A program made the translations under genes and the position numbers. 64,000 nt of DNA, taken from positions 14,763,422-14,827,421 of the forward strand of contig JAJEKV010000033.1 of assembly GCA_021234155.1 (NCBI GenBank). Reading direction: 5' to 3'. This stretch comes from Isoetes taiwanensis. Its lineage: Eukaryota; Streptophyta; Lycopodiopsida; Isoetales; Isoetaceae. Below the pieces are notes generated by a model. The model was not told where the DNA came from and ran no database searches. It worked only from the letters and a program-made list of their open reading frames with translations. Shown piece by piece: positions 4,793-61,559 of this stretch. Numbering within the stretch: the first letter of the stretch is position 1; every line of letters starts with the position of its first letter.

Positions 4793-5280
4793 GAAAGAAG
4801 GGTATAAAGCTCTTTCTTTTCTTTATTGTAAATATTGTGATTGTGAGCATGTTATATGGCCTGATGCAAGGCTTAGAGGCCAGTGGTGATCCCAGTTATT
4901 GGATGTTCAAGTGTGCCCTCCTTACTCTTGCTGTAATGTATAAATTGTCATTATGACCAACCAACAGATACAGATCAACTTGCCCCACTGGTGAATCAAT
5001 TGTGTTAAATTCATCCAGAATTTTTAAATTTGCTGTTTTAGGATAGGATGGCTGGGGAAACATATTGAGAATTTGTCATACAATAACCTATCTTTTGATC
5101 AGCACGGAATAGCATTTTTCCATAAAATAACGAGATTGACAACAAGAACTCCTTAGGAGTTAAAAGCTTCATGCGTCTCAAGTTTTATGTTTATACAGAT
5201 GGCCATAACAGTCTCCAATTGCCATGTCAATAGAACATTTGTACACAGGCAAAGCATGGCAAATGACAATTAAGGATGCT
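4793..5280. other. 3' flank of the F-box gene
   Basis: AT-rich sequence with no coding signal. It probably includes the 3' untranslated region of the F-box gene. It ends in TGCT (5277-5280), the left target duplication of the element that follows. Confidence 0.5.
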
Positions 5281-5305
5281 AAGTCGTATTTAATTAAAGT
5301 GGGAC
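5281..5305 (+). repeat. Left terminal inverted repeat of the 9.66-kb element
   Basis: 25-bp perfect match to the reverse complement of 14920-14944. It is preceded by TGCT. Confidence 0.75.
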
Positions 5306-5476
5306 AAATCTTGAATTTTGGGACTCGGACTGAAAATGGGACTCACACACCATAAAAGAAATTTCTGAATTGATTGCTTGAATAGAATTACACATGACAC
5401 ACATAGAATTGGGTTACTTGTTTTCCTCATAAATTTTACAAACCACTAGTTGAGATAGTTTTCAAACTTCTCAATA

Positions 5477-8205
5477 TTATGTGCCCTCATACAATGATAT
5501 AGCATGGAGGTTGCTCATGGCCTTGTCCATCTCCCTTCTTGGGATCTTGTGTGTGTTGTCCTTTGCAACGTGAGAACTTGGATATGACCATACCACACAC
5601 TCCACCAATTCCCTCCTTTGAGGGTCAGCATAATTTGCCCTCCACTTCTTCTCCCAGCAGTCAGTGTATTGCTCCTTCAAGTTGCCCTTCTTGTGTCTCC
5701 CAATGGGCTCCCAATATTGAATTTGGAATCCAGGACGCAACTCCTCTCCATCAGGCATAGTGGTGGTTACATCAGAGAGTGCCACCCCTAACCATATTGG
5801 ACAGTCCTCATCATCAGGCCTTACTAGCACAAAGTATCCTTCCTTGATGTCCTCAAAGGGATCCCACTCGGGAAGATCAAACCACTTCGCTTTGAGGCCT
5901 TACTTCCCACAAACCACTTGGAACCCTTGTTGGGACCCAAGTGAGCATTCTTAGACGTGCTTGCACCTTGAGAACCCTCCCATCTTGACTCTGGCAAGAA
6001 CCCGTCTCTTAGCTCCCTCCCACATGGCTGTTCAGTTTCCAAGCATGTCACAACTTTCTCCCAGACTTGATTAGGGGAGTCCATTTGATTTTTCTTAAGA
6101 GTGGAGGTGTGCTTTCCATTTCGAACATCATCCCAGTGTGTTATGTAATCCTTGATGCCCTTCACCAGTTGGCTAGAGTCTTTGATTGTCTTGAAGGGAG
6201 GTAGTGGTTTTGGTTGCCCCTTAGGAATGAGAACTTCACCAGCAGCACCCCTTTGCCACAACTCGATACCTTGTACAGCATCCACAACTTGTCACCGGTC
6301 TCCACTTATATTGCATGATTGGTATTCCATCCCTAACCCAAAACTTGAACTGAAGTGGCTTTGTGTGTCCTGTCAACTGGTCCTTACCATCTAGCAAGTA
6401 TCCTTCTACAAATGATTTCCAATCTGCAACCTCATCCATCAAGAAAGCCATTGGGTTGGGGTCAATGCAGCTCTCAAACACATCCATTAGTTCAGTGGAG
6501 AGTGGTCACGTTTCTCTCTTGAGCTTGGTGGAGAAAGTTCCAAAGAATCCATCTATATCATCATGCGATGCCCAACCATCATGAATCCCACTTTCACAAC
6601 TTTGAATACTCCCACTGCTGTCAAGTATGACATTGCCCCAAACATCCATCTATTCTTGTTTTTTTTCCAACAGCTTGTCCAACTGAACACATAGCTCCTC
6701 AAGGCGTTGATTTCTCAAGTAAGGGGAAATCATCCCAAGTCCTCCTTGATTCACTAGACACCTTGGATGTGAGCTTTTTTATCCGCCTTTGGTAACAAAG
6801 CGTTGATCATCCATCAAAGCCTCAAAATGGGTGCCGGAAGGGGAATACCTCCTCCCTTCTATCGATCCTTTCTCTAGTGTTCTCGTGCACTTGAAAATAG
6901 AGCTCACATGGAAGTTTGGATCATCTCTCCATAGATCAAGCACAAAATGACCATATGTTCCAGCTTCCATGACCATGTGTTAATACACCCCAGACTTACT
7001 TTCATTGAAAAAGCCGCTTTTGACAACGCTTTGGGTAAAGGATCTAGCTTTGGCAAGAAAGTCTTGTGTTGGTCCATCTTATCATGAATTATACACAAAA
7101 ATTTGTCCCGGGCGCATCTCTAAAAATGTTCTCCACGCCAATACAACCGCCTACATGATATTTGGTCCCTTTGGTGATCTCGCAGAAATTGCTCCCTAAT
7201 TGCCATTCTTTCTTTTCTATTGCAGCTTGATGCAAGTGTATCCTTGAGTTGAATGCAAGTGTTGCACTTTGAGAATGGCATGTGTTGTAGGACACTCCAC
7301 GCCCAGAAGTGAGTGCTCCATAACTTACTGAAATGTGATTGAGAAAGAGGCCTACCTCCAGTAGTTTCTAGGATGGAGTTGACCTCCTTAAGGCACTCCT
7401 TCTCGGATATAGTGTTGTGGCAACACTTGCACCACTCGCACACCGTGCTTTCGCTCACCTTCTCGACTTGTGAGGCATAGATTGAGACATGTATCTCACA
7501 AAGCTCTCAAGACTGCAATGGCCTTTAGAGTATTTGCTCTAGTTTTCAAAGTGAGTGCATTACCATGTTGGAACAAAGTGTGCCCTTTTCTAACCTGCCC
7601 CAAAGATTCTGTAAAATGAAGACTTGCTCACCCCAAGAATCCATCTCAATGCTCTCATACATACCTTCATGCCCCTCAATTGATATAGTAGCCGGCCCCG
7701 TGTTTTCATCATAGCTGGAATTCCTACACAAGGAGTAAAATGAAATTAATCCTATCTTTTGAAGTGTCCAATGTATTGGGACCTTATATCCGCACGAGGT
7801 CATCCACATTGTATCGCAGACGTGCAATCTAGGTTGCAACACTCTTGTCCCCTAATTGCCTCCCGTGTTTTCTTTGGTTGGTGCCATACTTTCCATCCTT
7901 TCTAAATATTTGTCACTTCTAGGCCTCTTGGGCACCTTTGGCTGCCTTTTATGAAAGACATAGCGTCTCTTCCTTGTGACCAAAGGATGCTCATCGACCA
8001 CCAAATCTTCCACATGGCCTTGGGTGGGCCTTGGGGTGTGTAGTTCAAGAGGGCAATCTAGAGTATCACCATTCTTGTGTGTAATATATCTAATTGGCCA
8101 TCTCAACCGAGCTTGGGACTCCAAAGAGCAGCCCCGAAAGCACACAATGCAATCACTAGAGCTTCCCTGGGACATGATTGTATCAACTTCGATAAGAAGC
8201 TTCAC
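5477..8205 (-). pseudogene. DUF7869-type (DDE-transposase-like) protein, decayed
   Basis: Read on the minus strand, the segments appear in the order expected for the DUF7869 family but switch frame several times. An N-terminal basic region is at 8205-7852. A Cys-containing part ('ILETTGGRPLSQSHF', then 'FSKCNTCIQLKD') is at 7458-7120. A first acidic motif, HDKMDQHKT, is near 7086-7062. A 'VQLD..KKNKNRWMFGAM' motif is near 6690-6640, and SHDDIDGFFGTFSTKLK is near 6575-6520. The C-terminal part, FVLVRPDDEDCPIWLGVAL, ends in a stop near 5477. The three acidic motifs resemble an RNase-H-fold DDE/D catalytic set; that reading is mine. Frameshifts and stops (for example around 6976 and 7546) mean no full protein can be made. 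It occupies the left half of the TIR-bounded element and is probably its former transposase. Confidence 0.65.
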
Positions 8206-8435
8206 AATGCCAACCCAAGATGTTCATCTCCCAGCCTCTCATCATTCACACTATCAAATGGATCAACCTGTAGCTTATTATACCCTCCGCCAGAATACCG
8301 CCCGGGTTGCAAGGGTGCAACAAAAGGCAACCCATCTTCCTCCATTGGAGCCTAGGGCAATGGCCTCCTTTGGACTTCCCTGGCTCCATTTTACTCATCT
8401 CACATGTTCCCTGAATGAAAAAGCTCACATTAAAA

Positions 8436-8705
8436 CCATATAGCCCCAAACACCACAAATATGACCATATGAACCATATAAAACCATACAAACATATTAA
8501 ATATAATCATATTATATCATACAACCATATTAACTAAAATCATACAACCATATTAACTAAAATCATATAACCATATTAAAGCATACAACCACACTCATTC
8601 TAAACCATATGTAAACATTGTAAACATATATAACCATTGAAACTATTCAACCATTGAAACCTTATTAAATACATAAGATAACATATATAAACATATAACC
8701 TACCC
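8436..8705. repeat. CCATAT/ACCATATTAA-rich simple repeat
   Basis: About 270 bp are dominated by variants of 'aaccatattaactaaaatcat' and 'accatata'. This is a diverged short tandem array. It lies upstream of the DUF7869 pseudogene start, in the divergent intergenic region of the 9.66-kb element. Confidence 0.6.
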
Positions 8706-9750
8706 TTTCATATCTTGTCATGTCCCGTGGCATTTCTTCTGAGGCAAAAACCGCGGGCTATGTCAAGAATCAATCATTTGCGCGTCATGGAGGGCATGGC
8801 CACACGCGTGACAATGGTTTTTATTATTGCACTTTTACGAGGTTCGAGGGGTGCAGCCGAATTAATGCACCCTCTTCCTCCTCCCCCGACCATTCTTCCT
8901 CCCCTGTTTTCTCTGATCACTCATCCTCCCCCGTTTCCTTAGCGCCGCTTTTACCGATCAGGCGATCGATCGAACCGAGCGATTCCAAGGCCATCTTATG
9001 ACGGCAGATTTTTGGTCGACGGATCGGGACGCTTCCCAGAAGTTCTCGCTAGATTCATTGTTCGGCCGGCGTTCACCGAGAAGAAAGTGAGGCCCTTTTA
9101 GTGTTGCTTTTTAGTTTTACGTAAGTCCTTTAGTGCATTTTTACTTATATTACATTTTGTTAGAGGCTCTTATTGATCCCCCGATACAATTTACGTACCG
9201 AGAAATCCTTATTCACGCTTTGTTAACGACTATACCCACATGGAAGTTTAACTCGAAGCCTCCTCCTCATCCAAGCAAATCTTCCGGTATGTTTTTGTAA
9301 TATCATACCCTTTTTAATCTCATTTTCTCTCAGACGTTTCTCCATCGTTCTCGTACTCTTCTCCAGCGTTCTCTGTTTTCTCATTGATCTCACTAATCTC
9401 AACGTTATCCTGTTTTCCCTTTGTATTGTTTTTGTTTTTGTTATCTTTTTCTTGCTTGTGGTTGAATTGAATACATTGTACGGGCACAAGTGAGAATAGT
9501 GGTTAGAGTAGTAGCAAGCAACCGAGATAGAAATCATCGAGACCGGTGTTAGGAACTAAGATATTGCGAGCATTAACGTAACATAACTAGGAATGTCTTT
9601 CTCCCGGCAAGAACTAAGAATAGGAATTGCTTCACGAATCTCCATTTCTAACTCACGGCAAATCCAATTGCAGGAGACATGCAAAGGGAGTGGCGAAGTT
9701 GGGAATACTTAAGCTTACCAACAGTCCGGGGAAGTGCACGGGCCTTCTTC
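8706..9750. other. Non-coding part of the 9.66-kb element
   Basis: Includes a pyrimidine-rich stretch at 8866-8940 (CCTCCCCC and CTTCCTCC runs) but no recognisable gene. It lies between the two divergent genes and may have held their promoters. Confidence 0.35.
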
Positions 9751-10812
9751 TTCGACTCGCGAGTCGAGAACTTCGACTTCCTTGGCCGAGAAGAGTGTAC
9801 ACTACGGGCTGTTGGCGGTTGAGATTCGACTCTTGATTGAGAGATACCTGACTACCAATGTCTTCACGATGCTAGAACCTGCTGCGGCCTTCTGGGCTCA
9901 TTAGGGAGAATGTATACCACGCCAATGGCTCTTTTGTGCGGTCGCGGTGCCTCCACCGGTCCCGAGCCACTCTCCTTGAACCATGCTCGCCGAATATTGC
10001 GAAGAAGGGCAGCTCCGGCGGCGGGTGGAAGGGCACCGGCGACTAACCATAGGTTGGCGGCGGCTTTTCGACTTCGTGAGTGAGAAGCGCGAGCTCTAGT
10101 GCACTCTAGAGCTGGCACAGGACGATCTTAACCACTCTCCTTCTATCTTCCTCGGACATTGCGAAGGGAAGTGGTTTTCCTTGTCTGAGGAGAGCCAACT
10201 CTTTAACCAATTCTCACATTATTATTGGTGTGGCCTCTGCAAACAAAGGCCGAGGAACCATCTTCGCCGAATATTGCGAGAAAGGATGGGCTCGATTGGG
10301 TGGAGGCCTCTACGACTAACCACCAGGTGCTGGCGGCTTTCGACTCGTGAGTCGAAAACGCTACCGCTGCCGATACCCCCTCGGGGCGGCTGCCGAGTCT
10401 TAACAACTCTCCTTCTATCTTCCTCGGACATTGGGCGAAGGGAAGTTGTTTTGATTTGTGCAGGGGCCAACTCTTAGCAACCACAGGAAACCGCGAAGAG
10501 CTTTGCTGTATGCATTCACCGGCCAAGGAAGTGGGAATGCCTTACCCAACCGCACTCCATGTACCATCGAAGTTCACCGATGGCTAAGGCGTTTCGACTT
10601 GCGAAGTCGAGAATATAGACATGCAAACCAACTCTACGCGACAGCCATGGAAACCATATTGCACGCATGCATTCTACCAAGGAAGTCGAATGCCTTAACC
10701 AACGGGCACTCCGTGTGTACTAACGGAGTTACGGATGGCTGAAGGCATTTCGACTTGCGAAGTCGAGAATGTAGACAGAAATAACAATCGCATTCTCGAC
10801 TCGCAAAGTCGG
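9751..10812. repeat. First cluster of TTTCGACTT..AAGTCGAAA palindromes
   Basis: Six copies of a palindrome with arms TTTCGACT/AGTCGAAA, or TTCTCGACT in variants, lie at 9751-9770, 10065-10086, 10338-10357, 10592-10613, 10748-10769 and 10792-10812. Centres vary (CGCG, CGTG, TGCG). The copy at 9752-9767, TCGACTCGCGAGTCGA, is perfect. One lacks a base in the right arm (10065) and the last is degraded. The same motif recurs after 13650. Confidence 0.7.
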
Positions 10813-11125
10813 TGATCCTTAACAGACCAATTCTCCCGTGTATGGTAGCGGTGGCCTCGACCGGTCGAGTCACTCTCCTTGAACCATCTTCGTCGGTATT
10901 GCGAAGGGGAGGGGCCTTGACCGGGTGGAGGCCTCTACAACTAACCCGAGGGGAAACCCCGAGAGGAAGCCAAGGCTTGCATTCTCTACAAGTAATGCGC
11001 ACTTTCTATTCTCTCGTTTTTAGTCCCAAGTGCCTCTAAATTGTCGAGCCACTCTCCTTGAACCATCTTCCTCGAATATTTGCGAAGAGGAGTGGTTCGG
11101 ACAGTGGAGGCCCCTCCGACTAACT
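9965..11125. repeat. Six interspersed hairpin modules around CTTC..CGAATATTGCGAAG
   Basis: Diverged copies begin near 9967, 10130, 10250, 10398, 10865 and 11045. They share CCACTCTCCTT, then CATCTTC, TCGAATATTGCGAAG and GGAGTGG. The outer parts (CCACTC and GAGTGG) and the inner parts (CTTCCTCG and CGAAG) can pair, so each module can fold back. Several are followed by GGTGGAGGCCTCTAC and GACTAACC. I see no coding frame running through them. Confidence 0.6.
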
Positions 11126-11531
11126 ACAAGAGGATGCATTTGAACCGCATCTCCGGGCCTTAGTCCTAGCGATCTATGTACAACATTCCAAGTAAGCGGT
11201 CCATGAAAAAAACACCTAAAAGCGGAACTGTTTCTTTACCCCGATCCATTGTTTCCTTGCCGCAGCATCTCAACCCGGAGAGTAAATCATCTCGAAGCTG
11301 AAAAATCTTTGGACAAGGAAACGATGAATCCGTCGAGCTTATCAGCAGTTCCATTATTTAAACACATACGGCATGTTCTACAAGCGAAATAACATAGGCA
11401 TCTCTCGAAACTCACCTCTTCGCGCTAGTAATTCCTTGGGCCATCAGTATCACGGATCCATGACCTCACCTAGAGTCTTTGCTTCTTACGCCGGTCTCTT
11501 CAAGAGTGTATTCAAAGATCTAATACTTGTA

Positions 11532-11894
11532 TCATCTGCGATTCGCGCGATCCCCGTTCCATGCCTTGATGTAGAGTTCCGTAACCGGCGGCTCCTCTCC
11601 GCTTCCTACCTTAGCTCCGTGCTCATCGATCAAATCAAGCGCTTGCAATAGGATGCGCTGGTCGAAAAACACATATGCAAAAAAGGCCAGCAAACTTACC
11701 GTCGGCTGGCCATTCGAAGTCGCTAACGATTCGATGCTCCCCCCTCGAACTCGAGGTCCCCAATGCCGCGAGGGAAGATAAACTATGCTCCGCTCACTTA
11801 GTCCCTTGATGTGATTAAATTTGAAATAGTGTTTGGCCGGGCTAAAGCCGACCGTCTTTGTACCTTTAGCCCTTCTTTTCATAAATGATTGCAT
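11532..11894 (-). CDS. Hypothetical 120-aa ORF inside the 9.66-kb element
   Basis: The minus-strand frame is open from an ATG at 11894 to a stop at 11532. Its C-terminal part, starting SLLAFFAYVFFDQR and continuing ILLQALDLIDEHGAKVGSG, faintly resembles the N-terminal helix region of ZSWIM7/SWS1-type SWIM proteins. No CxC..CxH zinc motif follows, so I do not assign that function. It may be a captured or chance exon. It lies between the palindrome cluster and the ParB-like gene and points the opposite way. Confidence 0.2.
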   Translation of the reverse strand: MQSFMKRRAKGTKTVGFSPAKHYFKFNHIKGLSERSIVYLPSRHWGPRVRGGSIESLATSNGQPTVSLLAFFAYVFFDQRILLQALDLIDEHGAKVGSGEEPPVTELYIKAWNGDRANRR

Positions 11895-12649
11895 GTCCTT
11901 AACTTCAAATTAAAGAACACGCCCGATCTTTTTACATGCAGTCCTAAAACTCACAACGCGGAAGAGACTTAATTCTGAGGGTCCGAAGAGGATGAGAGGG
12001 CATACAGACATGACTGGCCCAAGAAGCGGCCTTGGGAGGGGATGCTTCTACCGGCGGCAAGAAGAAGAAGAAGACAAACACCCCGGTGAGCTCGAGGTTT
12101 TTCTTTTGTCGAATACCTTAACCGATCCATCCTTTCTTCTTGCAAAGATTCACCTCGGACTCACTTTGGTGATCAGCGGCGAACTCCATTCTTCGTCATC
12201 GAGGGATGGAGACGAGCTTCTTGAAACAAAGCAGATTCTTGGTGGTATGTCGAGGTATCGACAAGTGGGAAGGAGAAAGATCTGTTTCTACACCAAAGGG
12301 ACAAGAAGAGCTCCGGAGACAAGTACAAGAAAATCGGTGTTGTGCTCTCCGTCGGCATGATTCAAAGCATTTAACACTACATGTCGAGGACTGCGCGTAA
12401 GAGTAAGTTCTATCACACCAAAAATTAGCGATTTCAAATTATTCTCACTCTTCCATGAGCAAGGCTAAGGGCACAAAAAAAGGCGGCGCCTTTAAATTGT
12501 CGGAACCTTGGGTGGAAGGATCCGAAGGGATGAAGGAGGCGGAACCCTAACATCCGTGGAGCTTGGTATGGAGATTTCCGAGTCGGGGAAAACTGTTCAA
12601 TACGGGGGAGCTTCACTTCTCATCAGGTGAAGACTCTACAACACTCTAC

Positions 12650-13611
12650 AATTGGGGAATGAAGTTGTGGTTCATACACAAAAAAGTCCACCAAAAACAA
12701 AGATGGGGATGATGACACCACACGGGAGGAATCGGATGACTAAGGAGACTAAGATATGGACGAAGTCCCCAATAATGGATCCAGATGATCGGATCAGGAT
12801 TTCACGAGAGGGGCACGTAAAATGGAGCCGCCTAGCTCAAGATTATCCGTTGGGAATATCACACAAGCCGCCGCCGGACATTAGACGGCTGAAGGTTTTG
12901 CACGGGGAGATGCCGTCTTGTTCAACCAGGGAATTTAATCCAAACACACATGCTGGAGATTTCGAATTGATGGTGCGACATCCCGATGCAGAGATCAATG
13001 CCTGCGGATGTCATACCTTTTAGCAGATCGACCGGTGAGTTGTTCAGCTGGAAGTCTGAGGAAGATCTGAAGGGAAAGGACATCCGGTTCTGGGTTGTAG
13101 ACGGTCAGCATTCAGTTAGGGCGGCGCAAGTATTGCAGACGGAGAGGGTAAAAGCACGTTAGGGTGTCCCTTAAAAAGTATTATTTAGTGACCAAAAAAG
13201 TACCTAAAAAGGTACCCAGGACTGGGTACTGGGTACCTGTGTAATATGTCAATAAAAGGTACATTTTAGAACTTTTATATATATTTTGGTCTTCCATAGC
13301 ATTATATTTATCTTAACTTTAAATATTAACACGTTCTTGACTTTTTTTTTTTAACTTTTGTACTAGTTTTAATGAAAAGAAAAATGAAAAAGTACCCAGT
13401 TTTAAAGTACCTAGTGTATGTACTTTTGCTGGTTCCAAAAGTGGTACACCCTAACATGCTTTTACCCGAGAAGGAGGTGCCGCAAAGGATCAAGGATAGA
13501 TATGCCAAGCGAGAGTGCAGAGTTCTTTCGGCGGAGACGCCAGCAACCGAACTGGCCAGCATTAGCCACTGCCAGAACACAATAGCAGCGAGTGCGAGCT
13601 ATGTAAGGTAA
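12650..13611 (+). pseudogene. ParB-like (DGQHS motif) gene broken by a MITE
   Basis: The frame open from 12971 reads PADVIPFSRSTGELF and then FWVVDGQHSVRAAQVLQTE before it enters the MITE at 13146. After the MITE, the frame at 13468-13611 continues KEVPQRIKDRYAKRE, CRVLSAETPATE and LASISHCQNTI, and reaches a possible donor (TATGTAAG then GTAAAT). Removing the 322-bp MITE and one GAGA copy joins the two halves without a frame change. The (V/D)DGQH(S/R) motif followed by a helix is typical of ParB/DGQHR-type nucleotide-binding or nuclease-like domains; this is a motif-level call. Upstream, 12652-13023 is open in another frame (ending at the TAG at 13021), so there is at least one further frameshift or intron. 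Sequence at 14122-14660 may be a later exon. Confidence 0.5.
13146..13467. mobile_element. 322-bp MITE with 25-bp TIRs, TSD GAGA
   Basis: The left end, starting GGGTAAAAGCACGTTAGGGT (13146-13170), matches the reverse complement of 13443-13467 at 23 of 25 positions. GAGA lies on both sides (13142-13145 and 13468-13471). The interior is AT-rich and carries several GGTACC palindromes. There is no ORF of note. It sits inside a coding exon of the ParB-like gene, and precise excision would restore the frame. Confidence 0.8.
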
Positions 13612-13636
13612 ATAACTCTCTGAATCCTAACATTTG

Positions 13637-14040
13637 CCGATTATCATCGGGGTTTTCGATTTCGCGAAGTCGAGAAAGCCGGTAAATACGTAAAAATCAA
13701 AGGATGTAGAGCTTTCGACTTCTTGAGTCGAGAAAACCCGAAGAAGTAAAAAGAAAATTAGACATTCAAAGGGACTTTCGACATTCGCGAAGTCGAAAGC
13801 CCTACCATCTTGATGTTTTTCCGATTATCATCGGGGTTTCGACTCGGTCAGAAAGCCGGTAACACGTAAAATCAAAGGATGCGAGCTTTTCGACTCATGA
13901 AGTCGAGAAAACCCGAATAAGTAAAGAAAGGGACTTTCGACTTCATGCGAAGTCGAAAAACCGGGCTACTATTTACTTGTTCATTCGGGTGTTTGTAGAT
14001 ACTTTCATGCCACGACACCCACTTCGGAAGTCGAGAAAGA
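13637..14040. repeat. Second cluster of TTTCGACTT..AAGTCGAAA palindromes in a tandem duplication
   Basis: Seven more copies or half-copies are at about 13653, 13713, 13775, 13837, 13888, 13934 and 14021. The copies at 13775-13799 and 13934-13959 have long arms (CTTTCGAC and GTCGAAAG). They lie in a duplicated unit of about 180 bp: 13637-13818 and 13820-13968 both begin CCGATTATCATCGGGG, and both contain GAAAGCCGGTAA and AATCAAAGGATG. The cluster follows the ParB-like exon directly. Confidence 0.7.
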
Positions 14041-14121
14041 CACTACTTCACGCCATTGGATGCGGTTGTATGGAATGAATGTCCTCCATTGTAATTTGAT
14101 TTCAATATTCTTTTCTTCGTT

Positions 14122-14660
14122 TTGACTAATGGCACCGTAATTGTTAATCATACTCTCCTTGCTCCGGTGGTTCGTGCACAGATCCGACACGAGCACAATC
14201 ATTTCGCCGTGCATCACGTAGACTCGCCGAGGCGGCATGCATCCTGCTCAAGGCTAAAGAAATACCGCTCGCACGCACTCCGGCCACGCCTACACTCTTG
14301 CCCGCCTATGGGATAAGGTTGCTCTTAATTGAGAGGTTGCTCGCTACACCACGGGATAAAGAACAGCGAAGAACAAAGAGAAAGTCCAGAAGCTCAAAGC
14401 ATCTTGCAAGCATTGCATAACATCCACGGAGGTTGGGGAAGGAGCATATTCGATGAAAGGTCGCGGGAGGCGAAAGTGGAGAAGTCGGGTGGACAGGTCG
14501 GGTGGTAGTTCCGGAGGCACCTCCACGTGAGGCATTCCACACTCTTGAGGTTGCCCCAAGGCTTACGGGCGTGAAGAAGCCGCTAGTTAATCCCCTAAGG
14601 TGGACCACCTACCAAGATGATGTAATCAGAGTGACAAAGAAGACCGCCATGGTCTCTGCG
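14122..14660 (+). other. Exon-like segments downstream of the ParB-like exon
   Basis: Two frames look coding-like: one reading RADPTRAQSFRRASRR and RLAEAACILLKAKEIPLAR at about 14180-14270, and one at 14502-14660 containing NPLRWTTYQDDVIRVTKKTA. I cannot name a domain. Position and strand suggest later parts of the ParB-like gene. Confidence 0.25.
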
Positions 14661-14919
14661 TCCAATGTAAAATACATTGTACCTATTCCATTTATTAATA
14701 AAAATTCTTTTTCAACTAGTTCTTTGGTTTCAATCTTTAATGAATTTCCTTTGTTTCAGTTGCATTGTTCTTGTTCTCGACTCGCTAACCAGGGAAAACT
14801 GCAGCAAAGCTGGAATACAGAGTTTTATTCAAAAATTCGAATTAAGGATAGTTTTCGGGTCGAGGTGCTTCTTTTTATGTAAATTAACAGGGTTCCGAAA
14901 AAAAATGGGAATGGAATGA

Positions 14920-14944
14920 GTCCCACTTTAATTAAATACGACTT
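14920..14944 (-). repeat. Right terminal inverted repeat of the 9.66-kb element
   Basis: Perfect reverse complement of 5281-5305. It is followed by TGCT (14945-14948). Confidence 0.75.
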
Positions 14945-14960
14945 TGCTGCACAAATCAAA

Positions 14961-23348: not shown

Positions 23349-25216
23349 TCTTATATTATAATGTTATACCGTAATTCTTGGATTGGATCAAGCCCTAATT
23401 TGAATGGTCGAGATCATCTGAGTGCATCCGAAGGTCGAGATTTATTGCACGACTTACCACCACCATGATTGGTCGTACTTTGGTCTCTTAAGGGGAAAGG
23501 GTAAAGGGAAAAGGGGGGAAAGGAAAAGGGAAGAGACAAGAGAGAATGTGAAGGGCAAAAAGGCACGGGAAAAGGGAGAAAAGCAAAGGGAAAAGGGTGG
23601 GGATAAGAGAAGAGAAAAAGGCATGAAAAAATGAAAAGGGAAAGAAGAAAGAAAAGGGGAGGGGAAAAGGGTACCTGGGGAAAGGGCAGAGATAAAGTAG
23701 TAAAAGGAAGAGGAAAGGGCATGGGAAAAAAAGGAAGAAGGAAAGATTGAAGAAAGGGAAAAAGGGAGGAGAAAAAAAGAATGGAAAAATGGAAGAAAAA
23801 AAGGGCATGGGAAAAGGGAGAAAAAGAGAAGCGTTGAAGAAAGAGGAAAAAGAAAGGGAAAAATGGCATAGGAAAAGGAAAAGGAAAAGGAAAACGAAAA
23901 AGAGAGAGGGAAATGGAAGGAAAAAAGCGCATCGAGAAAAGGGGAAGAGTAAAAGAGTGGGAAAATGAGGAAGAGGGGAAAAGGGAGAACAAGAAAAAGA
24001 TGGGGAGAAAGGAAGAAATAAGGGAAAGTGAGAAGAAATAAAAAGGAAAGGGAAAAGGGGGAAAGGGAACCTGAAAAAAAGGCATGAGAAAAAGGGAAAA
24101 AGGGAAACAAGAAAAGGGAAGGGGGGAAGGGCATGAGATAAAAGGGAAGAGGAAAATGGCGGAGAAATAGAAAAAAGAAAAGGCAAAAAAAAAGGGGGAA
24201 GATAGAAAGGGTGGGGAAAAGAGGAAATGGGCATAGGAAAATAAGAAAAGAAAACAAATGTGGAAAGGCATGGGAAAAGGGAAAAGGGAAAAGGAAAAGG
24301 AAAGGAAGGAAAAAGGGCACGAGAAAAGGATCGGGAAAGTAGAAAAACAAAAAAAAAAAAAATCCATTAGAAAAGGGAAAAGGGAAGAAGCGGGGGAGCG
24401 GAGGAAAAAGGGGAAGAAAACATGAAAAGGAAAAGAGAAAAGAAAAAGGAAGGGGGAAAAGAAGAAAAAATCGCACGGGAAAAAAAGAAGTGGGAAAGGG
24501 TGGGAAATGGAGGAAAAGGGAAGCACAGGAAAAATGGAAAGAAGAAAGGGGTGGAAAAAAAGGGAAGGGAAAAAGGGCGTAAGAGAAGAGAAATGGAAAA
24601 GAAAAAATGAGGAAGAAGGGGAAAAGGGGGAGAGGGCACGGGAAAAAAGAAAAGAGGAAAATAGGAAAAGGGAAGAGAAAAAAGGGAACATAGAAATATA
24701 GGAAAAGGAAAAAGGGAAGGGAGAAAGGGTGAGGAGATGGGAAAAGGGAAGGTAAAAAGGGCATGGGAAATGGGAGGGGAAAAAGAAAAAGGGAGAAAAG
24801 GGCATCCAAAAAAAGGAAGAGTGAAAGGCTGGGAAATGGACGAGGCATGGAAAAAAGTGAAAGACTAAAAGATTGAGGAAAAGGGAAGGCATGGAAAAAG
24901 GGTGGGGAAAAGAGAAGGCGTGGAAAAAGGTGAAGGGAAAAGGAGAAGGGCATGGAAAAAGGAGAAGAAGGAAAGGGTGGGGAAAGGAGGAAAAAGGAAA
25001 GGGAAAAAGGTTATTGGAAAAAGGGAAGAGGGAAAGGAAGGAAAGAGGTGGGGAAAAATGGGAAAAAATTAAAAGAAAAAGAAGAAAAAGTGAAATACGG
25101 GATAGAGCAAAAGGGAAAGGGAAACAGAAAGGGAAAGGTATAGGGCTTTTCTCACTACACCCAAAACATTTACAAGCTCTCAACTTACGCCCAGCAATGC
25201 TGGGTACCATTACTAG
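23349..25216 (+). mobile_element. Second Helitron, enclosing a polypurine tract
   Basis: The 3' end has the hairpin CCCAGCAATGCTGGG (25190-25204), 8 bases, then CTAG at 25213-25216 followed by T. It differs from the 20351 hairpin by an AAC/AAT loop change and one arm-end base. The likely 5' end is TCTTATATTATAATG at 23349, preceded by A; this end is a guess. There is no Helitron Rep/helicase. Nearly the whole body is the purine tract. Confidence 0.5.
23487..25140 (+). repeat. 1.65-kb polypurine tract (degenerate AAAAGGG/GGGCATGGG minisatellite)
   Basis: The plus strand is almost only A and G for about 1.65 kb. Units such as GGGAAAAGGG alternate with GGGCATGGGAAAA or GGGTGGGGAAAA. Pyrimidines occur mainly in the recurring CAT and single T or C positions. 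The absence of stop codons on the minus strand produces a 612-codon open frame that is a composition artefact. Confidence 0.9.
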
Positions 25217-25689
25217 TAAAGGTAAGAAAATCATGCTTTTAGACAATAGCACAGAGATTAGCTTGCCAGGATAAACTTGGCAAAAAGCACAAAAGCAACC
25301 TTAAAAGTGGGGCCTCGATGCCAGATGCCTTGATAGTAGTGATAGATGTTCTTTTTCGGAGAATCTTTTGGTAGAATTTCCATGGTTGGAAACACATCAA
25401 GATAATTCTATTAATAATGAAATTAATAATAAAGTAAGATTTGCTTCTCATCCTGAAACAAGAGTTCCTATGATTATAATGCAAATGCAAAAATTTTATA
25501 CTTTTTCATGAGGGCGGTGAGAAGATACGGAATGGTGACCGATACATTGATAGTTAAGCCTATTGCCTCCACTCCCATCATATTACCAATGTTGCTAATC
25601 AATTTGAGGCTCGCAAAACATAAAAAATATAAACAATTTGTAAAATGACAATGGATAATATAATATTTCTTAATACAAATTAATGAGAA
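25217..25689. other. No gene recognised
   Basis: AT-rich linker. Ends near a short GAGAAT repeat (about 25685-25700) that is probably the 3' tail of the adjacent minus-strand LINE. Confidence 0.4.
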
Positions 25690-29973: not shown

Positions 29974-30730
29974 GTTTTTGATATTTTCACCAAAAAAGGG
30001 CAAGATATGGTGTTCACTGTCTATGGCGAGCATTGGAGGAGGATGAGAAGGATCATGACCGTGCCATTTTTCCCAAACAAGGTAGTCCAGCAATCTAGTT
30101 TTGCTTGGGAGTCTGAAATTAACAGTGTTATTAAGGATTTGATGGCTAAAGAAGAGGCAAAAACTACCGGAGTTGTTATCAGAAAAAGGCTGCAGCTTAT
30201 GATGTATAATATTATGTACTGGATGATGTTTGATCGAAGGTTTGAGAGGGAAGATGATCCTTTGTTTTTGAAGCTCCGGGCTTTGAATGGCGAGAGAAGT
30301 AGATTGGCCCAGAGCTTCGATTACAACTACGGAGATTTCATTCCCATTTTAAGGCCCTTTTTGAGAGGATATTTGAAACTTCGCAGTGAAGTCAAAGAAA
30401 AGAGGCTACAATTATTCAAGGCTTACTTCTTGGAAGAACGAAAGTAAGATCATTTCCTGCACTTGTAGGTTGCTTTGTTAGTATGATGGTATAACATTTA
30501 GAAACTAAATAGGCCTTGTATGAAATCATGATGTTCTTGTCTGCCAGAACTTTTAGAATTCTTTTCGTTCTTGAATATGTGTAAATTATGACTTGGGAAA
30601 ATTTTGAGTACCAAGGGCTCGATGCATTTCTTTGAGAAATGTGCAATTGAACACATTTTGGAAGCTTCGGGATAAAGGGAGATTACTGAAGATAATGTTC
30701 TATATATTGTGGAGAATATCAATGTAGTAG
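29974..30730 (+). pseudogene. Cinnamate 4-hydroxylase (CYP73A) fragment
   Basis: The intact family hydroxylates trans-cinnamate at the ER in the phenylpropanoid pathway. The exon 1 part is open from 29974 ([20 protein letters not shown]) through [20 protein letters not shown] to [13 protein letters not shown] and a donor at 30444. These are C4H signature segments. Exon 2 (about 30601-30730) reads ILSTKGSMHFFEKCAIEHIL, then EITEDNVLYIVENINV. It contains an in-frame TAA at 30673, where C4H has EKGEI. About 100 N-terminal residues (membrane anchor, proline-rich hinge) are missing. No third exon follows, so the I-helix oxygen-binding region, the ExxR motif and the heme-binding cysteine are absent. 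It cannot be an active P450. Retention of an intron shows it arose from genomic DNA, not from mRNA. Confidence 0.85.
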
Positions 30731-35659: not shown

Positions 35660-36027
35660 TCAACTAAAAAACAAATTATCATCATAACCTATGCAACTTA
35701 TTATTAAGACACAAAAAAGTATTCAATATATATTATATATATAAATTCCTATACAAAAACCTAAAGACATTTACACAATGCCTTCAGCGGAAAATCCTCC
35801 TAGAAGAACAAATAAAACTAGTATTCGCAACATCATTACTCCAGGTCAAGGGGTAGTGAGATGAGGTGATAGTTTCCTCGCGAGATGTCGTGGTTGATAT
35901 TTAGGCATGTGAAAGAATCACAGTTGCGGTTGCTTCACCAAGTGAAATTCAATTGTATGATAGCCATTATCACCATCATAGGGACCGGGTTTTGATAAGA
36001 ATAATAAACCTTTCGGAAGAAACATCA

Positions 36028-36729
36028 TTAAGCTCCTTCGGGAATGTCTACAATCCAATAATGCACATAGATATCTTTGTGCTCCAAATGATGAGGTTGA
36101 TGCCTAGGCGGCACAAGAGGATGAGGATGGGGATGAGGACGAGGATGGGGATGAGATTTGGGGGTGAGGAGGAGGAGGATGCGGATGAGATTTGGAATGT
36201 TTGGGGTGAGGATGAGGGCGAGGATGAGGTTTAGGATGAGCAGGGGACGGGGATGAGATTTGGGATGTTTGGGGTAAGTATAAGGATGAGGAAACGATTT
36301 GGGTTGTGAATGAGGATGAGGTATGGGGTGGTGAGGAGGGTGAGGTTGAGGATTGGCGATGGAGATGGCATTTCTATCAATGGCAATCAATGAGTAGAAG
36401 TTATTAGAAGGTACTTCCCAAGTTACAAATGATTCTAGTCTTTGAAGCTCCAAATGATTCTCGGCCGGTCTGCGATCTTGGGTCTTTGGAGCTGGAGCTA
36501 GAGTTGGAGATGTTGAGTTAACTATGGGCGTTTGTGTTGTTGGTGGTGTTGAGCTATTATCCTTACCCCAATCGATTGTAATGATTGGAGGATGAGCAAT
36601 TTCGGCAAGAGGAACAAACTCCATATCTCTCACCACCTCATTGTGCATATATGGAAACCTTAATGTCAAGGAAGCTGGATGTCTTTCTTTGTTTGAGAAA
36701 TTATCGTCGTTGTCATCATCATCAAACAT
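36028..36729 (-). CDS. Hypothetical 233-aa protein with His-Pro-rich tail (left-arm copy)
   Basis: Open on the minus strand from ATG at 36729 to a stop at 36028. The N-terminus is acidic (MFDDDDNDDNFSN). Then comes a region with MEFVPLAEIAHPPIITIDWG, and a low-complexity tail of HP, HPHP and NLI repeats made by a CCTCATCC-type minisatellite (36115-36350). No domain is recognised, and the tail is probably repeat-driven rather than functional. The right arm carries a frameshifted counterpart at 62943-63616. Retention of the N-terminal 75 residues in both copies hints that this part was once coding. Confidence 0.35.
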   Translation of the reverse strand: MFDDDDNDDNFSNKERHPASLTLRFPYMHNEVVRDMEFVPLAEIAHPPIITIDWGKDNSSTPPTTQTPIVNSTSPTLAPAPKTQDRRPAENHLELQRLESFVTWEVPSNNFYSLIAIDRNAISIANPQPHPPHHPIPHPHSQPKSFPHPYTYPKHPKSHPRPLLILNLILALILTPNIPNLIRILLLLTPKSHPHPRPHPHPHPLVPPRHQPHHLEHKDIYVHYWIVDIPEGA

Positions 36730-37835
36730 AAGGCTACAAGCATCTTCATTATTGCTTTGCTAGGCTACTTCGCTACAAACAACATTCTCTTCCAACTTTT
36801 ATAGCCGGTTTATGCCAATTATGGAAGATTTTTTTCTCTTTTGGGCCATTCCATCTAAAGATGTTTCTTTGGCCCTATTATAGCTTCCAAGCCATTGAAG
36901 GAAAGGAACTGTTCCTTTGGGAGCCGAAACCTTTGAGTGATTCTCGACAACGAGCAGCCAACGAGGATGCAGACATCCGTGCAGAGAGCTACGAGGGTTC
37001 AATCCGGATGGCATCTCTTTCAGGCCCCGGAGTCAAGAAAACATGGCGCTTCACTTCAAACCGATAAAAGCGGCTGGAATTCTCGTTTCTTCAATCGGTG
37101 AAGCGGTATGGATAATTTTCATTTAGCATAGGAATATTTAGGTTCGTTTTGCAGCTTTCTCCGTGTTGATATGTTTGGAGGATTTGACATATGTATGTTA
37201 AATCTTCCCGATTCATACTTAGGAAGTTGAGAGGGTTTTAAAATAGCTATATATCACCACGGCCCTTTAATTAGACTGCAATCCCATGCTTAATTTGATG
37301 CGAAAACCATGGCTTGCTTGGTGCAAAAAGTGAGCATTTTCTAAACAATTTGCGACCCTACGAGGTCATTTCAAGCCTCGAGGTTATTATCAAGGCTGTG
37401 TAAAGTCAAAGCATGGCAAGATGACTTGAAGTTAAATACTTGTTCGACACTTCCTCATTGTAAAATGAAGTTGTCAGCCCCAGGATACCTTGTACACTAA
37501 ACTTGGCTTCTGACATTTTATTTGTCACAAAGAAACAGTCATATATTACTACCGTAATAGTTAGTCAATAGCATTAGCACTTTTCACTCTTAAACACCGG
37601 GCCCAAAGCCTCGCTGGTATCCACTGACCTTTAAAGCCTCGTGGATGAAGCCTTAGAGCTTGTCCATGCAGCCTTCAAAGCCTCAGGGTATCACGATCGT
37701 GGGAGAAGATAAAAGATTTGAGGACTGGATTTGGCGCATTAAAATAACGATTCTGAGAGAGCAAGACTAATGTACCTCAATAGACGGCATTATCCGTTTT
37801 ATTTGAAATCGACTAGGAAAATTTAAATGCGACTC

Positions 37836-38153
37836 CTAGTGTCTTCCAATCATGTTCGTTCTTTTCATTTCATCCGCTTGATCATGAACATGCTGATTAT
37901 ATTTCAAATCTACCTTATCCATTGTCTCATGGCGGGATGGGCAATGCTTTTCCTTCATTTCGATAAAGGTCATGGCCATCCTCACATACCAACAGCAGTT
38001 CAACATCTCTTTTTGCCATATTTTATGGCCCTCAATATTATGTTCGATCTCGGACAATCGACTCCATAGCCCGTTTGTCCATTTGTTTGTATCTGTTAAA
38101 AGCTCGTTGGCGTTCAACTCCGGACACCCCGCCAACGAATCTAGCTTTTGCAC
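37836..38153 (-). CDS. Helical exon-like ORF (left-arm copy)
   Basis: The minus-strand frame reads AGCPELNANELLTDTNKWTN, then GLWSRLSEIEHNIEGHKIWQ and MKEKHCPSRHETMDKVDLKY. Charged and hydrophobic residues alternate as in a long helix. The counterpart in the right arm is on the plus strand at about 61560-61870, with small indels. I do not recognise the family. Upstream on the same strand (about 38300-38200), EATEREEAASKELMLHKITK looks like the preceding coding stretch. Confidence 0.35.
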   Translation of the reverse strand: MQKLDSLAGCPELNANELLTDTNKWTNGLWSRLSEIEHNIEGHKIWQKEMLNCCWYVRMAMTFIEMKEKHCPSRHETMDKVDLKYNQHVHDQADEMKRTNMIGRH

Positions 38154-38337
38154 CGCCGATGCTTCTTGAAGGGTCGATGAAGAACACTATCTTCTATGCG
38201 TATTTACGGGGTCACTATTGTTCTCAAAATCTTCTTTGTGATCTTATGCAACATCAGCTCCTTGGATGCGGCCTCTCTCCTCTCCGTAGCTTCTCAATTA
38301 TCGTCCCCTTCCTTTTCTATTTCAACGTCTCATAGCT

Positions 38338-38425
38338 GGCCATGGCAGAACCATGGTTCAAAACCATGGCAGAACCATGGCAGAACCATGGTTCAAAACA
38401 AGAAGAGCGGCCATGGCAGAACCTC
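38338..38425. repeat. CCATGG-centred short repeats
   Basis: AACCATGG and GGCAGAACCATGG are repeated four to five times, alternating with TTCAAAA. A related array (AACCATGGTTACGCCATGG) is at 61275-61325 in the right arm. Confidence 0.8.
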
Positions 38426-39085
38426 CAAGGTTTATGCTGGTTCATGATGATTTTAATGGATCCGATCTTGGTTGTATTGGAAGGTAACAGCATTAACGAG
38501 CATTAATGACCTGAGCAATGAGCAATTTATCGATTTGTCTCAATTCTTCCCATTAGTATTTATAGGCTAATAGTTTCCTAGTTGTCCATCTGCAATTTAT
38601 CTATTTTAGTTCTTCGTTTGTTGTACTTGAAAATATGTCTTGGCCAGTAGTTACGCATTACAATGTATTAATGCACTTGCATTTGATTCTTTGATTATTT
38701 TCAGTGCTTATATGGCTTTCACTTTTTTATTGTAATGCATCACATCTTTGCAACCGTGTTATTTTTGATGAGTTCTTATCACATTGATTCCACTTAATCC
38801 ATTCTTTCCAAATGCGTCATTTTTATTGATTCTTGACATCCCTCGCGCCAGTCCGGGTGCCTTATGTATCCGAGTTTGAAACGTTTGAATCCATCCCGGA
38901 ATGCATCCGCAAGAAATGCGATTGCAATGTCTATTCAAAATGGTCTCATTGCGATGTGCTTATTTTGATTTGTTTGCATGAATGACACGATCATGTTCTA
39001 CATGTGAGGTTGACCCTATTATTTTAATCGGGTAGTAGATCTTTGCTTTCCTCATTCTTTCGTTTCATATTCATCCTTTTGATAG

Positions 39086-39187
39086 AAACCAAAGCGGTAC
39101 TTGATGAACTATCAAGAAAAGAGCAATTTATAAGGAAAGAGCAATTAGAAGTTCGGGTTCTTGCTTGCTCATGTTCCATCACAAAAG
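39086..39187 (+). other. Conserved exon-like segment (left arm)
   Basis: Between TTTTGATAG and the donor-like AAAAG/GTATGT, the frame reads ETKAVLDELSRKEQFIRKEQ and then LEVRVLACSCSITK. The right arm keeps it on the minus strand at about 59830-59935 with one residue changed. No domain is recognised. Confidence 0.4.
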
Positions 39188-40046
39188 GTATGTTTGAGGT
39201 AAATAGTTTATTTTCTTTGTTGCTATTTCTTATCGTGCTCTGTTTCCAAATCTTAGAGTCTATGGAAGAGATGTTCTAAACCTGTGATTTCACAACAATT
39301 TTCTTGACTACAATCCATCCTAGAATGGTAAGTTGACAAGCATGTTTGAAGCTACCAAGATGATATGCATTTCTTTATATTTGGCGATAATTGAGCTTTT
39401 CAACTATAGACTTTTTTACATACATCTACATCGATTATGAAGCTATGGCTATGCTCAAAATCCTGTGCTTCCAAATCCGATCCGACCCACAAAGACCCAG
39501 CCACAAGCCCGATCTCTCAAAGCTTACCCCAGGCGGATGCTTCACGCTGCTGCACGACTCCCTCTGTTCAATTATTAATTATCAATATGGCATGACAACA
39601 ATTCCAACAATAATTCTCAAGGACTGACCAATCATACAAAGCCCGTTTCTAATTTCTTAGAAGGATTTCAATAAAAGCACTATCATGTATTTCATGCTTT
39701 GGTAAATGAAATGCTTCATATATTGCTCATCAAGTTGCTCATCAAGTTGAAAGGAAGTGTGTTAAAGAAATAAAATAGACGAATTTCACAAATTTACTAA
39801 AAAAGGAATATACTTAAAGAAAATAAAGAAATTGGCCGCCTTGTACTTTGTACTTTGTTTTGGTGTGTTATGGGAGCTGTATGCTTAATGGTTCATGTCA
39901 TTCATGTTTTTCGAATTATTATTTTGACCACAAAAAAACAAGATCTCTCATAACACACCAAAACAAAGATTAGATGTGATACGCAAAACGAAGAATAATA
40001 GCAAAAAAAGACAAGGGACAACCAGGGGAGCACGAAGCAGAAGAAA

Positions 40047-40232
40047 TCAACTACACCATCCCTCTTGCTGCGCCAACGTACCAATTAGAGGGTGGGCTAG
40101 GGTCGAAAGGTGTAGCATGGGCGAGAAAGGAATGGCCAAGACAATTGAAATAGCCAGACGAAGCAATAGAAGGCCAACACCTCCAAACCTTGTTAGTACT
40201 TGCTTTGGATCCACGTTGGCACAGACATTCAA
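40047..40232 (-). other. Membrane-like ORF (left arm)
   Basis: The minus-strand frame contains CANVDPKQVLTRFGGVGLLL and LRLAISIVLAIPFSPM, one probable transmembrane helix. The same reading occurs in the right arm at about 54410-54570 and, more decayed, at about 58440-58600. Family unknown. Confidence 0.3.
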
Positions 40233-40569
40233 TGCACCAATTTCGTCAACGACAAAGATGACCTAGAAAACATATTCTTGGATCAATCCAACGGTAGCCA
40301 AGAAAACGAAGAATTTGACACAGAGGGGTGGGTGATCTTGCTCCCATCAATACAACAAGTTTTGTCGAGGAATTAACCACATGTCTTGATCCAGTTGACT
40401 CTCGAGGTGATGATGGCGATATCTAACTGAGACGTGGAAGAATAAACAACTTGTGAATAAAAGAATAAATTTTGTCATTTCATTTGTATCTCTCTTCATT
40501 TGTTATTTTCACTCGTAAAATTACATAATAATTTGAGAACCATCTAAGGTTCAAGAGTTTCTTAAATTT

Positions 40570-41590
40570 AGGCGCAATCACCGACCGTAGTGCCTCGAGA
40601 ACCTGCAACCTTCAATGGGCTTATTAAGCTCGACGTCGTTTGTCTCTTAAGATCTTTGCAAAATCTTGCTCTGAAGGGATCTTTACGTGCGAAGGGGTCA
40701 AACGACGGCAGACTATTCAAGAGCCCATCAAAATGAAGCAGATTCACAAGATACATGATCCACTCTTACAACAAGATTTCCAAGAATTCACCGTGCATTC
40801 ATCTCTTTGTGCAATAGAGCTTAAGTAAGGAGCTAAGTTGTATTGATCCTAAGAGATGAATGCAAGAGGCATGTGGAAACCTCATTTGTGACCGAGGAGG
40901 GAGGTAACGCTGAAATGTAGCCATTTCGTTTTAGACCATTGTGCTTTGTAGTGAGAACAATGATTCCAACTATAGTGCCCAAGGTAAGTCGATGCCATTG
41001 AAATATTACACTAGAGCATTGAACATGGAGAGTGCATATGGGAACTTCGACGGTCTTGCAAACCTCTCGAATAATGGAGCCTAGAAAGTGACTACACCAC
41101 ATTGATCCAGAGAGGCAGAGAAAGAAAGATAGTTGCTTTCAACTTGAGATACTTAAGATTGTCGATGGCTCGTTCCAGAATTCAGGAGGAATCGTTGACC
41201 TTAGTGGCTCAAGAACATGCTGCCTTCCATGGGCTTGAACTCGACACTATTTGTCTCTTTCTCGTCTTTGCCGAATCTTTTTGTGAAGGGATCTTTGCGG
41301 CGAAGGGCCAAACCATGGCGGACCATTCAAAAGCCCGTGGAAGAGAAGCAGGTTCACAAGATACATGATCCACTCTTGATTCCAACTGCATGCATGTTCA
41401 AGTTCAATGACATCTGTCCCTCGGACATCATGACCTTTGTTGCAATGGGTACCATGGTTCCACCATAGATTCCAAAGGGAAAAAAGCGACCGACGGATGT
41501 CTAGATGTCATTGACCTAGCACGAAGTTCTAAGGTTATCATGGACCACTCTGATTCTTTTTCTCTTCGCCGCGGAACCATTGTTTTCGGA
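40570..41590 (+). repeat. Two related modules carrying a HKIHDPLL reading
   Basis: The module at 40570-40860 and the module at 41190-41470 are diverged copies: both have GTTTGTCTC, GAAGGGATCTTT, a CAAGATACATGATCCACTCTT segment and similar spacing. On the plus strand they read KQIHKIHDPLLQQDF and KQVHKIHDPLL. In the first, the following CIDP.R.MQEAC segment weakly recalls a kinase C-lobe; I do not rely on it. The right arm holds both modules twice, in reverse. Confidence 0.55.
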
Positions 41591-41698
41591 TACAAGATTT
41601 TATGATATTTCACACAATTATGGCATTTCAGAGATTGTGTTAAATTTTTGAAATGCAATAAATTGTGTGAAGTATCATAAATCTTACAAGACTTTGTC

Positions 41699-41868
41699 GC
41701 TAGTTGTTCTTTTTAGTGGGTGCATATGTGTACAAACAACTAAAGAAACAACTAAGTTTTTATATTACCTTGAAAGCATCGCCGCTAGTTGTTCTTTTTA
41801 GTGGGTGTATATGTGTACAAACAACTAAAGAAACAACTAAGTTCGCATATTACCGCAAAAGCTGACAT
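41699..41868. repeat. 85-bp tandem duplication
   Basis: CTAGTTGTTCTTTTTAGTGG begins at 41699 and again at 41784. Each is followed by GTGTACAAACAACTAAAGAA. The same pair is present in the right arm at about 52785-52925 and, altered, at 56605-56735. Confidence 0.85.
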
Positions 41869-55905: not shown

Positions 55906-56720
55906 ACGCTATAATACATGGAAAAAACGAATAAGCATACAGCTCCCATAACACACCAAAATAAGGATTTCAAAATTTTCTTTTTTAGTTTGTGGTTTGA
56001 AAGACAAAGTACAAGGCGGCCAATTTCTTTATTTTATTCACTCATTCTCTTCTTTAAGTATATTCCTTTTTTAGTAAATAGAGAAAGGGAGGTGAATGCC
56101 TACCAGAACTAAGAACAGGAATCGGATAGCTACAAAGACCGATTATTTGCAGAATACCAAAACAGGCCGCCACGGATTTCCTGACGCATCATAGCTCTGA
56201 CACAAAAGAAACACCCATTTCTGCAAGTTGAACATTCATTTCTTTCTGATGCTTGCTCCAGCCTTCTTGTTCTCGATGCTTGCTCTAGCCTACCGTAGCA
56301 CCACAGACAGTGCTCCACCTCTGCAGAATTTGTGCCTTCCGCTAGCAAACCCTATCTAGCAAACCCTATTTCTAAATGGCTCGAGGGTTGCATGTGAAGG
56401 AGTCTGAATAAGCTAATTGAAAAAAAAATACAACATGGCCCATGGGTCTAAACCATTGAACAAAAAACGCTAAAATTAATGTAGGCGTATATGCACTCTA
56501 GATATACTAATTAGTAGTTCCCATGCAATACGTTTTCGAAATCATATGAAAACCATAGGAAAAATAGTACAAAAATACAAAACCAACCCCCTGTTATTAT
56601 GCTAGATATGCACCCACTAAAAAGAACAACTAGCGGCGGTGATGCTTTCGCGGTAATATGAAAACTTAGTTGTTTCTTTAGTTGTTTGTACACATATGCA
56701 TCCACTAAAAAGAACAACTA

Positions 56721-56740
56721 GCGGCGGCGATCGCCGCCGC
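56721..56740. repeat. Perfect 20-bp GC palindrome
   Basis: GCGGCGGCGATCGCCGCCGC sits at the junction where the 85-bp repeat unit ends and the downstream sequence resumes. The other copies have GCGGCGGCGATGCTTTCGCG or GCGACAAAGTCTTG there. Confidence 0.95.
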
Positions 56741-61230: not shown

Positions 61231-61559
61231 CCATTTTTACTCCTTGGAGGTTCTCGCCATGGCCGCTCTTCTTGTTTTGAACCATGGTTACGCCATGGTT
61301 TTGAACCATGGTTACGCCATGGCCCGCTATGAGACGTTGAAATAGAAAAGGAAGGGGCGATAATTGAGAAGCTACGGAGAGGAGAGAGGCCGCATCCAAG
61401 GAGCTGATGTTGCATAAGATCACAGCAGTATTTGAGAATAATAGTGACCCTAAAACGCGATAGAAGATAGTGTTCTTCATCGGACCCTTCAAGAAGCATC
61501 GGAAGGTGCAAGCTAGATTCGTTGGCGTGTCAGGGAGTTGAACGCCAACGAAGCTTTTA

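Follow-up and report, generated by a model that had tools for sequence, protein, structure and literature searches.

What could have moved a 9.66-kb segment of plant nuclear DNA in which a gene for a protein with a domain of unknown function, DUF7869 (PF25273), is paired with a divergent gene reminiscent of the bacterial partition protein ParB, and what would the latter gene do there? The question is raised by a stretch of 64,000 nucleotides from Isoetes taiwanensis (assembly GCA_021234155.1, contig JAJEKV010000033.1, positions 14,763,422 to 14,827,421 of the forward strand), the whole of which we call the window. A first-pass annotation of its sequence had viewed the segment as a mobile element in which the DUF7869 protein is the transposase and the ParB-like protein an accessory. 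The segment proves to belong to a family of cut-and-paste-type transposons, and we consider it likely that the DUF7869 protein (gene 1) is the transposase, with the product of the ParB-like gene (gene 2) as a putative palindrome-recognising accessory.

The mobility of the segment is apparent from its ends, which in the window are arranged as follows.

5277..5280, no strand: left target-site duplication TGCT, read in the window sequence; a single TGCT is present at 5/5 fetched paralogous empty sites
5281..5305, plus strand: left terminal inverted repeat (TIR), 25 bp, AAGTCGTATTTAATTAAAGTGGGAC, read in the window sequence; 2217 exact copies in the genome, 0 for the control
14920..14944, minus strand: right TIR, 25 bp, read in the window sequence
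14945..14948, no strand: right target-site duplication TGCT, from the window sequence and the paralogous empty sites

The perfect inverted ends and the TGCT immediately outside both thus lie where the first-pass annotation had placed them. In the host assembly, to which all our copy counts and genome searches refer (1,658,258,908 bases in 1110 contigs), the terminal 25-mer has 1102 exact matches in forward and 1115 in reverse orientation, as opposed to 0 for the reversed control, and the inverted ends are therefore not due to chance. Further segments bounded by the 25-mer, whose existence had been suggested as a check, were indeed found with their duplications: facing end pairs among the places listed form two size groups, one of 3.5-5.8 kb (12 pairs) and the other of 11-14.8 kb (14 pairs). 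The claim of 4-bp duplications is borne out by 12 of the 13 complete end pairs read (TGCT in the window, and ATTA, TAAA, AATT, TTTA, TCAT, ACAG, AATT, TTAT, AAAA, ATGA and CTTT elsewhere), the remaining one having a 5-bp duplication (TGTAC). An empty site, likewise sought, exists in the form of paralogues: with the two window flanks joined into one query, seven other genomic places proved to have an uninterrupted site, and all five of those fetched read GGATGCTGCAC, with a single TGCT. The same TGCT insertion occurs at three paralogous places, namely in the window, at C1038:15.176-15.188 Mb, with about 12.3 kb between the flanks, and at C1050:5.852-5.869 Mb. At the last of these (C1050:5851671-5868741) the flanks are about 16.8 kb apart, presumably reflecting more nested insertions. 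A duplicated target at inverted ends, together with uninterrupted pre-insertion sites, is the hallmark of TIR (cut-and-paste type) DNA transposons, and the 9.66-kb segment is one damaged member of a real transposon family, of which the genome contains about a thousand copies.

The element exists in two size classes, a full-length, coding class of about 12 kb and a class of about 4 kb devoid of both gene 1 and gene 2. Copies of the smaller class have in common with a full copy 43-65 bp at the left end, some 200-250 bp at the right end and the palindromes described below, but little else, and are non-autonomous members of the family.

Gene 1 occupies most of the left third of the segment.

5477..8390, minus strand: gene 1, DUF7869 protein, probable transposase, with many broken frames in this copy; identified by its PF25273 match, outer limits approximate

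In better copies its product is about 950 amino acids long. The window piece 6236-6502, a fragment scored alone, matches PF25273 with E=0.0016 and 18.5 bits (the Pfam cut-off being 26 bits), and membership in the family is established by scores far above this curated cut-off in better copies, i.e. 150 bits (E=7.5e-44) for the copy at C907:9.79 Mb, which has an open DUF7869 frame of 830 amino acids continuing in another frame, and 104 bits for the C134 copy. The C907:9.79 Mb copy itself seems to be inserted into an element resembling a long interspersed nuclear element, as its right flank contains, by eye, a reverse-transcriptase-like frame.

Our main argument for the function of gene 1 comes from a second DUF7869 family in the same genome. 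Its members at 15 loci share a sharp terminus (...TTTAAACTTTGTT) but have differing flanks, and this end (pattern AACAAAGTTTAAAWTGAAACGC) is present in 433 + 499 genome copies. One close facing pair among the matches listed (C51, 16 kb), read at its ends, lies between two ATAT sequences, which make up a 4-bp duplication; the opposite end may often differ in this family. Since the two families share the domain and the duplication length despite their different ends, the DUF7869 protein is the probable transposase, as the first-pass annotation had proposed. Further support is provided by the motifs DxMDQ, QLDN and GHTHDxID, which are invariant between the proteins of the two families (32% identical) and form the pattern expected of three catalytic aspartates, as well as by signs of purifying selection (see below). 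The window family is only about 24-32% identical to the other DUF7869 proteins compared here. The domain is very abundant in the host genome, with 9,911 first-look candidates, and 150/150 scored above the cut-off. A 915-amino-acid open DUF7869 frame in a Trichormus metagenome bin (CAKZGI010000425.1, 519-3263; about 500 residues aligned, E = 5e-31) indicates that the family extends beyond the host genome. The contig in question may be misbinned plant (fern) DNA, as Trichormus includes the Azolla symbiont. Our literature search found no paper naming the PF25273 family, PDB sequence searches gave no meaningful match, and IMG/VR yielded no relatives of either the DUF7869 protein or the ParB-like exon.

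Gene 2 and the features that have altered it in the window lie to the right, on the opposite strand.

11992..12085, plus strand: possible first exon of gene 2 (ATG to donor site), tentatively placed by eye in comparison with the C907:9.79 Mb copy
12148..13607, plus strand: ParB-like exon of gene 2, with the motif VVDGQHSVRAAQ in better copies and disrupted here by a miniature inverted-repeat transposable element (MITE) and frame breaks; splice limits inferred
13146..13467, no strand: nested 322-bp MITE within the ParB-like exon, recognised by its inverted arms, with GAGA on both sides (13142-13145, 13468-13471)
13608..14030, no strand: deletion junction region, at which about 2.8 kb of full copies is gone (the remaining gene 2 exons including the NIF/HAD exon), from BLAST against six 12-kb copies
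14150..14644, plus strand: 3' open reading frame near the right end, a third gene or a terminal exon, kept in several 12-kb copies; no Pfam match

In other, better copies the ParB-like exon is open for about 390-400 amino acids and carries the motif VVDGQHSVRAAQ. This motif, together with weak profile matches extending over it (phrog_1033 'ParB-like partition protein', E = 0.029; DUF6371, E = 0.037; DUF6551, E = 0.16), hints at a relationship to ParB, while comparison with phage and plasmid records gave chance-level matches only. Further exons follow on the same strand, the last of them ending in a stop codon and encoding a NIF (FCP1-like HAD phosphatase) domain with E = 2.9e-10, above the cut-off. 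No methyltransferase domain was detected in the gene 2 exons in Pfam, PHROGs, NCBIfam, PDB sequences or plasmids, although a strongly diverged one could escape, and no ParA ATPase domain was encountered in the pieces scanned against Pfam.

The association of the two genes extends well beyond the window. Among the 150 best ParB-like and the 150 best DUF7869 places of the window family, 19 pairs are located within 15 kb of each other, compared with a chance expectation of 0.41; all 19 are divergent and mostly 6.2-6.6 kb apart. The ParB-like gene is thus a standing partner of the DUF7869 gene. In clean pairs of copies, nonsynonymous divergence (dN) is lower than synonymous divergence (dS) both for the DUF7869 frame (dN 0.015, dS 0.108) and for the ParB-like exon (dN 0.042, dS 0.172), which argues that selection maintained both genes during the spread of the family.

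The window copy had been described as bearing two divergent, decayed genes together with palindrome clusters. The two remnants and the clusters are there, but 'decayed' is only partly accurate. Gene 2 is truly damaged: BLAST blocks shared with the six 12-kb copies reveal the loss of about 2.8 kb from the right half, and the ParB-like exon is interrupted by the 322-bp MITE, which has inverted ends of about 25 bp (GGGTAAAAGCA...). The same MITE is found elsewhere in the C134 copy, near that copy's other end. The window copy is hence a deletion derivative and has lost the ability to encode a complete gene 2 product. Most of the small frame breaks, in contrast, look like unpolished long-read errors. 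In a comparison with the duplicated insertion at C1038:15.176 Mb, we counted 13 mismatches and 18 indels, each of one or two bases, over 1.7 kb of element sequence (5281-6976), as against 1 mismatch and 1 indel in 1.29 kb of flank, and the DUF7869 gene of the duplicate is open across 486 amino acids where that of the window is broken. Such a concentration of differences in the element would be hard to obtain if element and flank were of equal age, while unpolished errors in high-copy repeats can produce it; the assembly was built from Nanopore reads with Illumina polishing (PMC8566536). Real decay as the chief source of the frame breaks is largely rejected by this comparison. As a general caution, genes that appear decayed within high-copy repeats of nanopore assemblies may represent unpolished sequence.

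The palindromes lie in the window as follows.

9752..9767, no strand: palindrome TCGACTCGCGAGTCGA
10340..10355, no strand: palindrome TCGACTCGTGAGTCGA
10594..10610, no strand: palindrome TCGACTTGCGAAGTCGA
10750..10766, no strand: palindrome TCGACTTGCGAAGTCGA
13715..13731, no strand: palindrome TCGACTTCTTGAGTCGA
13890..13906, no strand: palindrome TCGACTCATGAAGTCGA
13937..13956, no strand: palindrome TCGACTTCATGCGAAGTCGA

The core TCGACTCGCGAGTCGA is mostly found inside a 24-bp palindrome, TTTCTCGACTCGCGAGTCGAGAAA. Counting exact or near occurrences, there are 5-14 of them in 12-kb copies, 7 in the window copy and 2-6 in 4-kb copies, compared with 0 in the remaining 54 kb of the window. Genome-wide, 4623 exact copies exist, whereas the reversed control has 0; of the first 50 sites listed, 32 lie on the inner side of a facing exact end and within 12.7 kb of it. 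The palindromes of the full copy at C907:47.03 Mb are found in the intergenic spacer, within introns and close to the 3' end, and in none of the recognised coding exons. Because the palindrome is kept in the otherwise unrelated interiors of the 4-kb and 12-kb elements, its retention is good evidence for a function in cis. The combination of a ParB-like gene with many copies of a palindrome suggests that marking or handling of element DNA is done by the element itself, and the simplest reading, given that the protein is ParB-like and the palindrome has the size of parS, is that the gene 2 protein binds it. Bacterial ParB-parS systems likewise have a repeated palindrome of this size on the same element as the ParB gene; they differ from the present case, which concerns a nuclear eukaryotic transposon with weak ParB homology and presumed binding. 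Apart from these shared palindromes, the 4-kb class, the NIF/HAD domain and the assembly-error-like frame breaks also go beyond the first-pass annotation.

These observations can be combined into a model. The DUF7869 protein would probably pair and cut the 25-bp ends by means of the three aspartates of an RNase-H-like core and insert them into a target site whose strands are cut 4 bases apart; it would probably also move the 4-kb elements in trans. For comparison, the genome of Ectocarpus, a brown alga, has many giant families whose transposases are pseudogenes and whose mobilisation is presumed to occur in trans (PMC12477816). The ParB-like part of the gene 2 accessory may recognise the 24-bp palindrome in noncoding DNA and load onto or mark the element, with the phosphatase-like NIF/HAD domain possibly acting on a bound partner. 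A more far-reaching version, which we regard as doubtful, is that of a plant nuclear transposon equipped with parS-like sites of its own, in which the ParB-like/NIF-HAD protein would bind the palindromes in every copy, coding or not, and would load on, mark or cluster element DNA, so that site-bearing copies gain an advantage in replication, transposition or escape from silencing.

Several points weigh against this model. The homology to ParB is weak, Pfam ParBc giving no match to the ParB-like exon, and binding of the palindrome by the protein is suggested by analogy. That the ParB-like and NIF/HAD exons belong to one transcript is likewise deduced from their order and strand. The pooled pN/pS values (nonsynonymous relative to synonymous differences) of 0.39 and 0.45 are less striking than those of the clean pairs, a difference probably due to the inclusion of frameshifted stretches. 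An AlphaFold single-sequence model of a DUF7869 relative reached a predicted local distance difference test score (pLDDT) of 35 and does not demonstrate an RNase-H fold, and the chemistry of excision and integration is put forward here as a proposal. The order of strands and helices in the AlphaFold model resembles an RNase-H core, an observation that we did not use as evidence.

Among the alternatives, we lean slightly towards the possibility that the element is a true member of Sola1, in which case the host and the details would be what is new. Sola elements are described as having 4-bp target duplications, TIRs and a DDD-type transposase, and Sola1 is known from the moss Physcomitrella and reaches lengths of more than 15 kb. 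Our element resembles them in its TIRs and its 4-bp duplication (seen also in one pair of the second DUF7869 family), and its conserved D..D..D pattern would fit a DDD-type transposase; the ParB-like gene, however, falls outside the definition of the superfamily. Going by the duplication and the candidate DDD pattern, we call the element Sola-like in habit, without claiming membership. The closest parallel to the gene pair, and a further point in favour of Sola1, is Sola1-1_Ec32 of Ectocarpus, a giant DNA transposon of 21.5 kb with a transposase gene and, on the opposite strand, a gene for a ParB-like protein with a DNA-methyltransferase domain; similar proteins are reported from transposons of green and red algae (PMC12477816). 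The first-pass annotation knew of no described plant element with this pair, and the pair itself is thus precedented, in an alga. Sola1-1_Ec32 differs from our element in its size and host (about 12 kb and a land plant here) and in its accessory, which here has a NIF/HAD domain and no detectable methyltransferase, although this precedent had led us to expect one; the available parts of its description mention no palindromes.

A second alternative, with an appreciable though minority chance, assigns the palindromes to the transposase or to RNA, as intron hairpins, instead of to the ParB-like protein. Some palindromes are indeed located in gene 2 introns and close to its 3' end and would form hairpins in the RNA, and binding to internal repeats is common among transposases and their helper proteins. 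Palindromes are also present in the intergenic spacer and in the 4-kb elements lacking both genes, which makes a role confined to mRNA unlikely; they may, however, serve the transposase. As for the first-pass view of gene 2 as an accessory, its status as a standing partner holds, while its binding role stays putative.

It is improbable that gene 2 is captured cargo, as in Pack-type elements, that contributes nothing to transposition. In favour of capture, NIF/HAD domains are frequent among host proteins. Giant transposons also often hold unrelated genes (PMC12477816). Against capture speak the same divergent arrangement with the DUF7869 gene at 19 separate places, purifying selection on the ParB-like exon between copies, and the occurrence of a ParB-like partner in the distant algal element. 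Ginger elements make duplications of 4-6 bp, but a Ginger-type element with a Gypsy-like integrase is very improbable and was rejected on two defining features: the ends are AAG...CTT, not TG...CA, and Pfam scans found no integrase domain in either gene. Chance placement of dispersed repeats as the source of the inverted ends has next to no likelihood. The ends are indeed high-copy, but the genome end counts, the facing pairs with duplications in 13/13 copies read and the uninterrupted paralogous sites led us to reject it.

Elsewhere in the window, large inverted-duplicate blocks, mostly of 91-100% identity and with an internal tandem duplication, occupy 35892-42336 and 52251-63771, and a 1.9-kb low-complexity array at 23414-25300, GGGAAAAGG-like, gives rise to spurious long open frames. 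An exon at 29974-30447 resembles, by eye only, cinnamate 4-hydroxylase (a CYP73-like cytochrome P450), which fits the land-plant host.

The analysis attaches a function, that of a probable transposase of transposons with 4-bp duplications, to an abundant domain of unknown function, and adds a vascular plant to the algae whose transposons are known to have ParB-like accessory genes. It also supplies a candidate binding site for ParB-like proteins, a conserved palindrome kept even in gene-less derivatives, and the role that these proteins may have in eukaryotic transposons thereby becomes directly testable.

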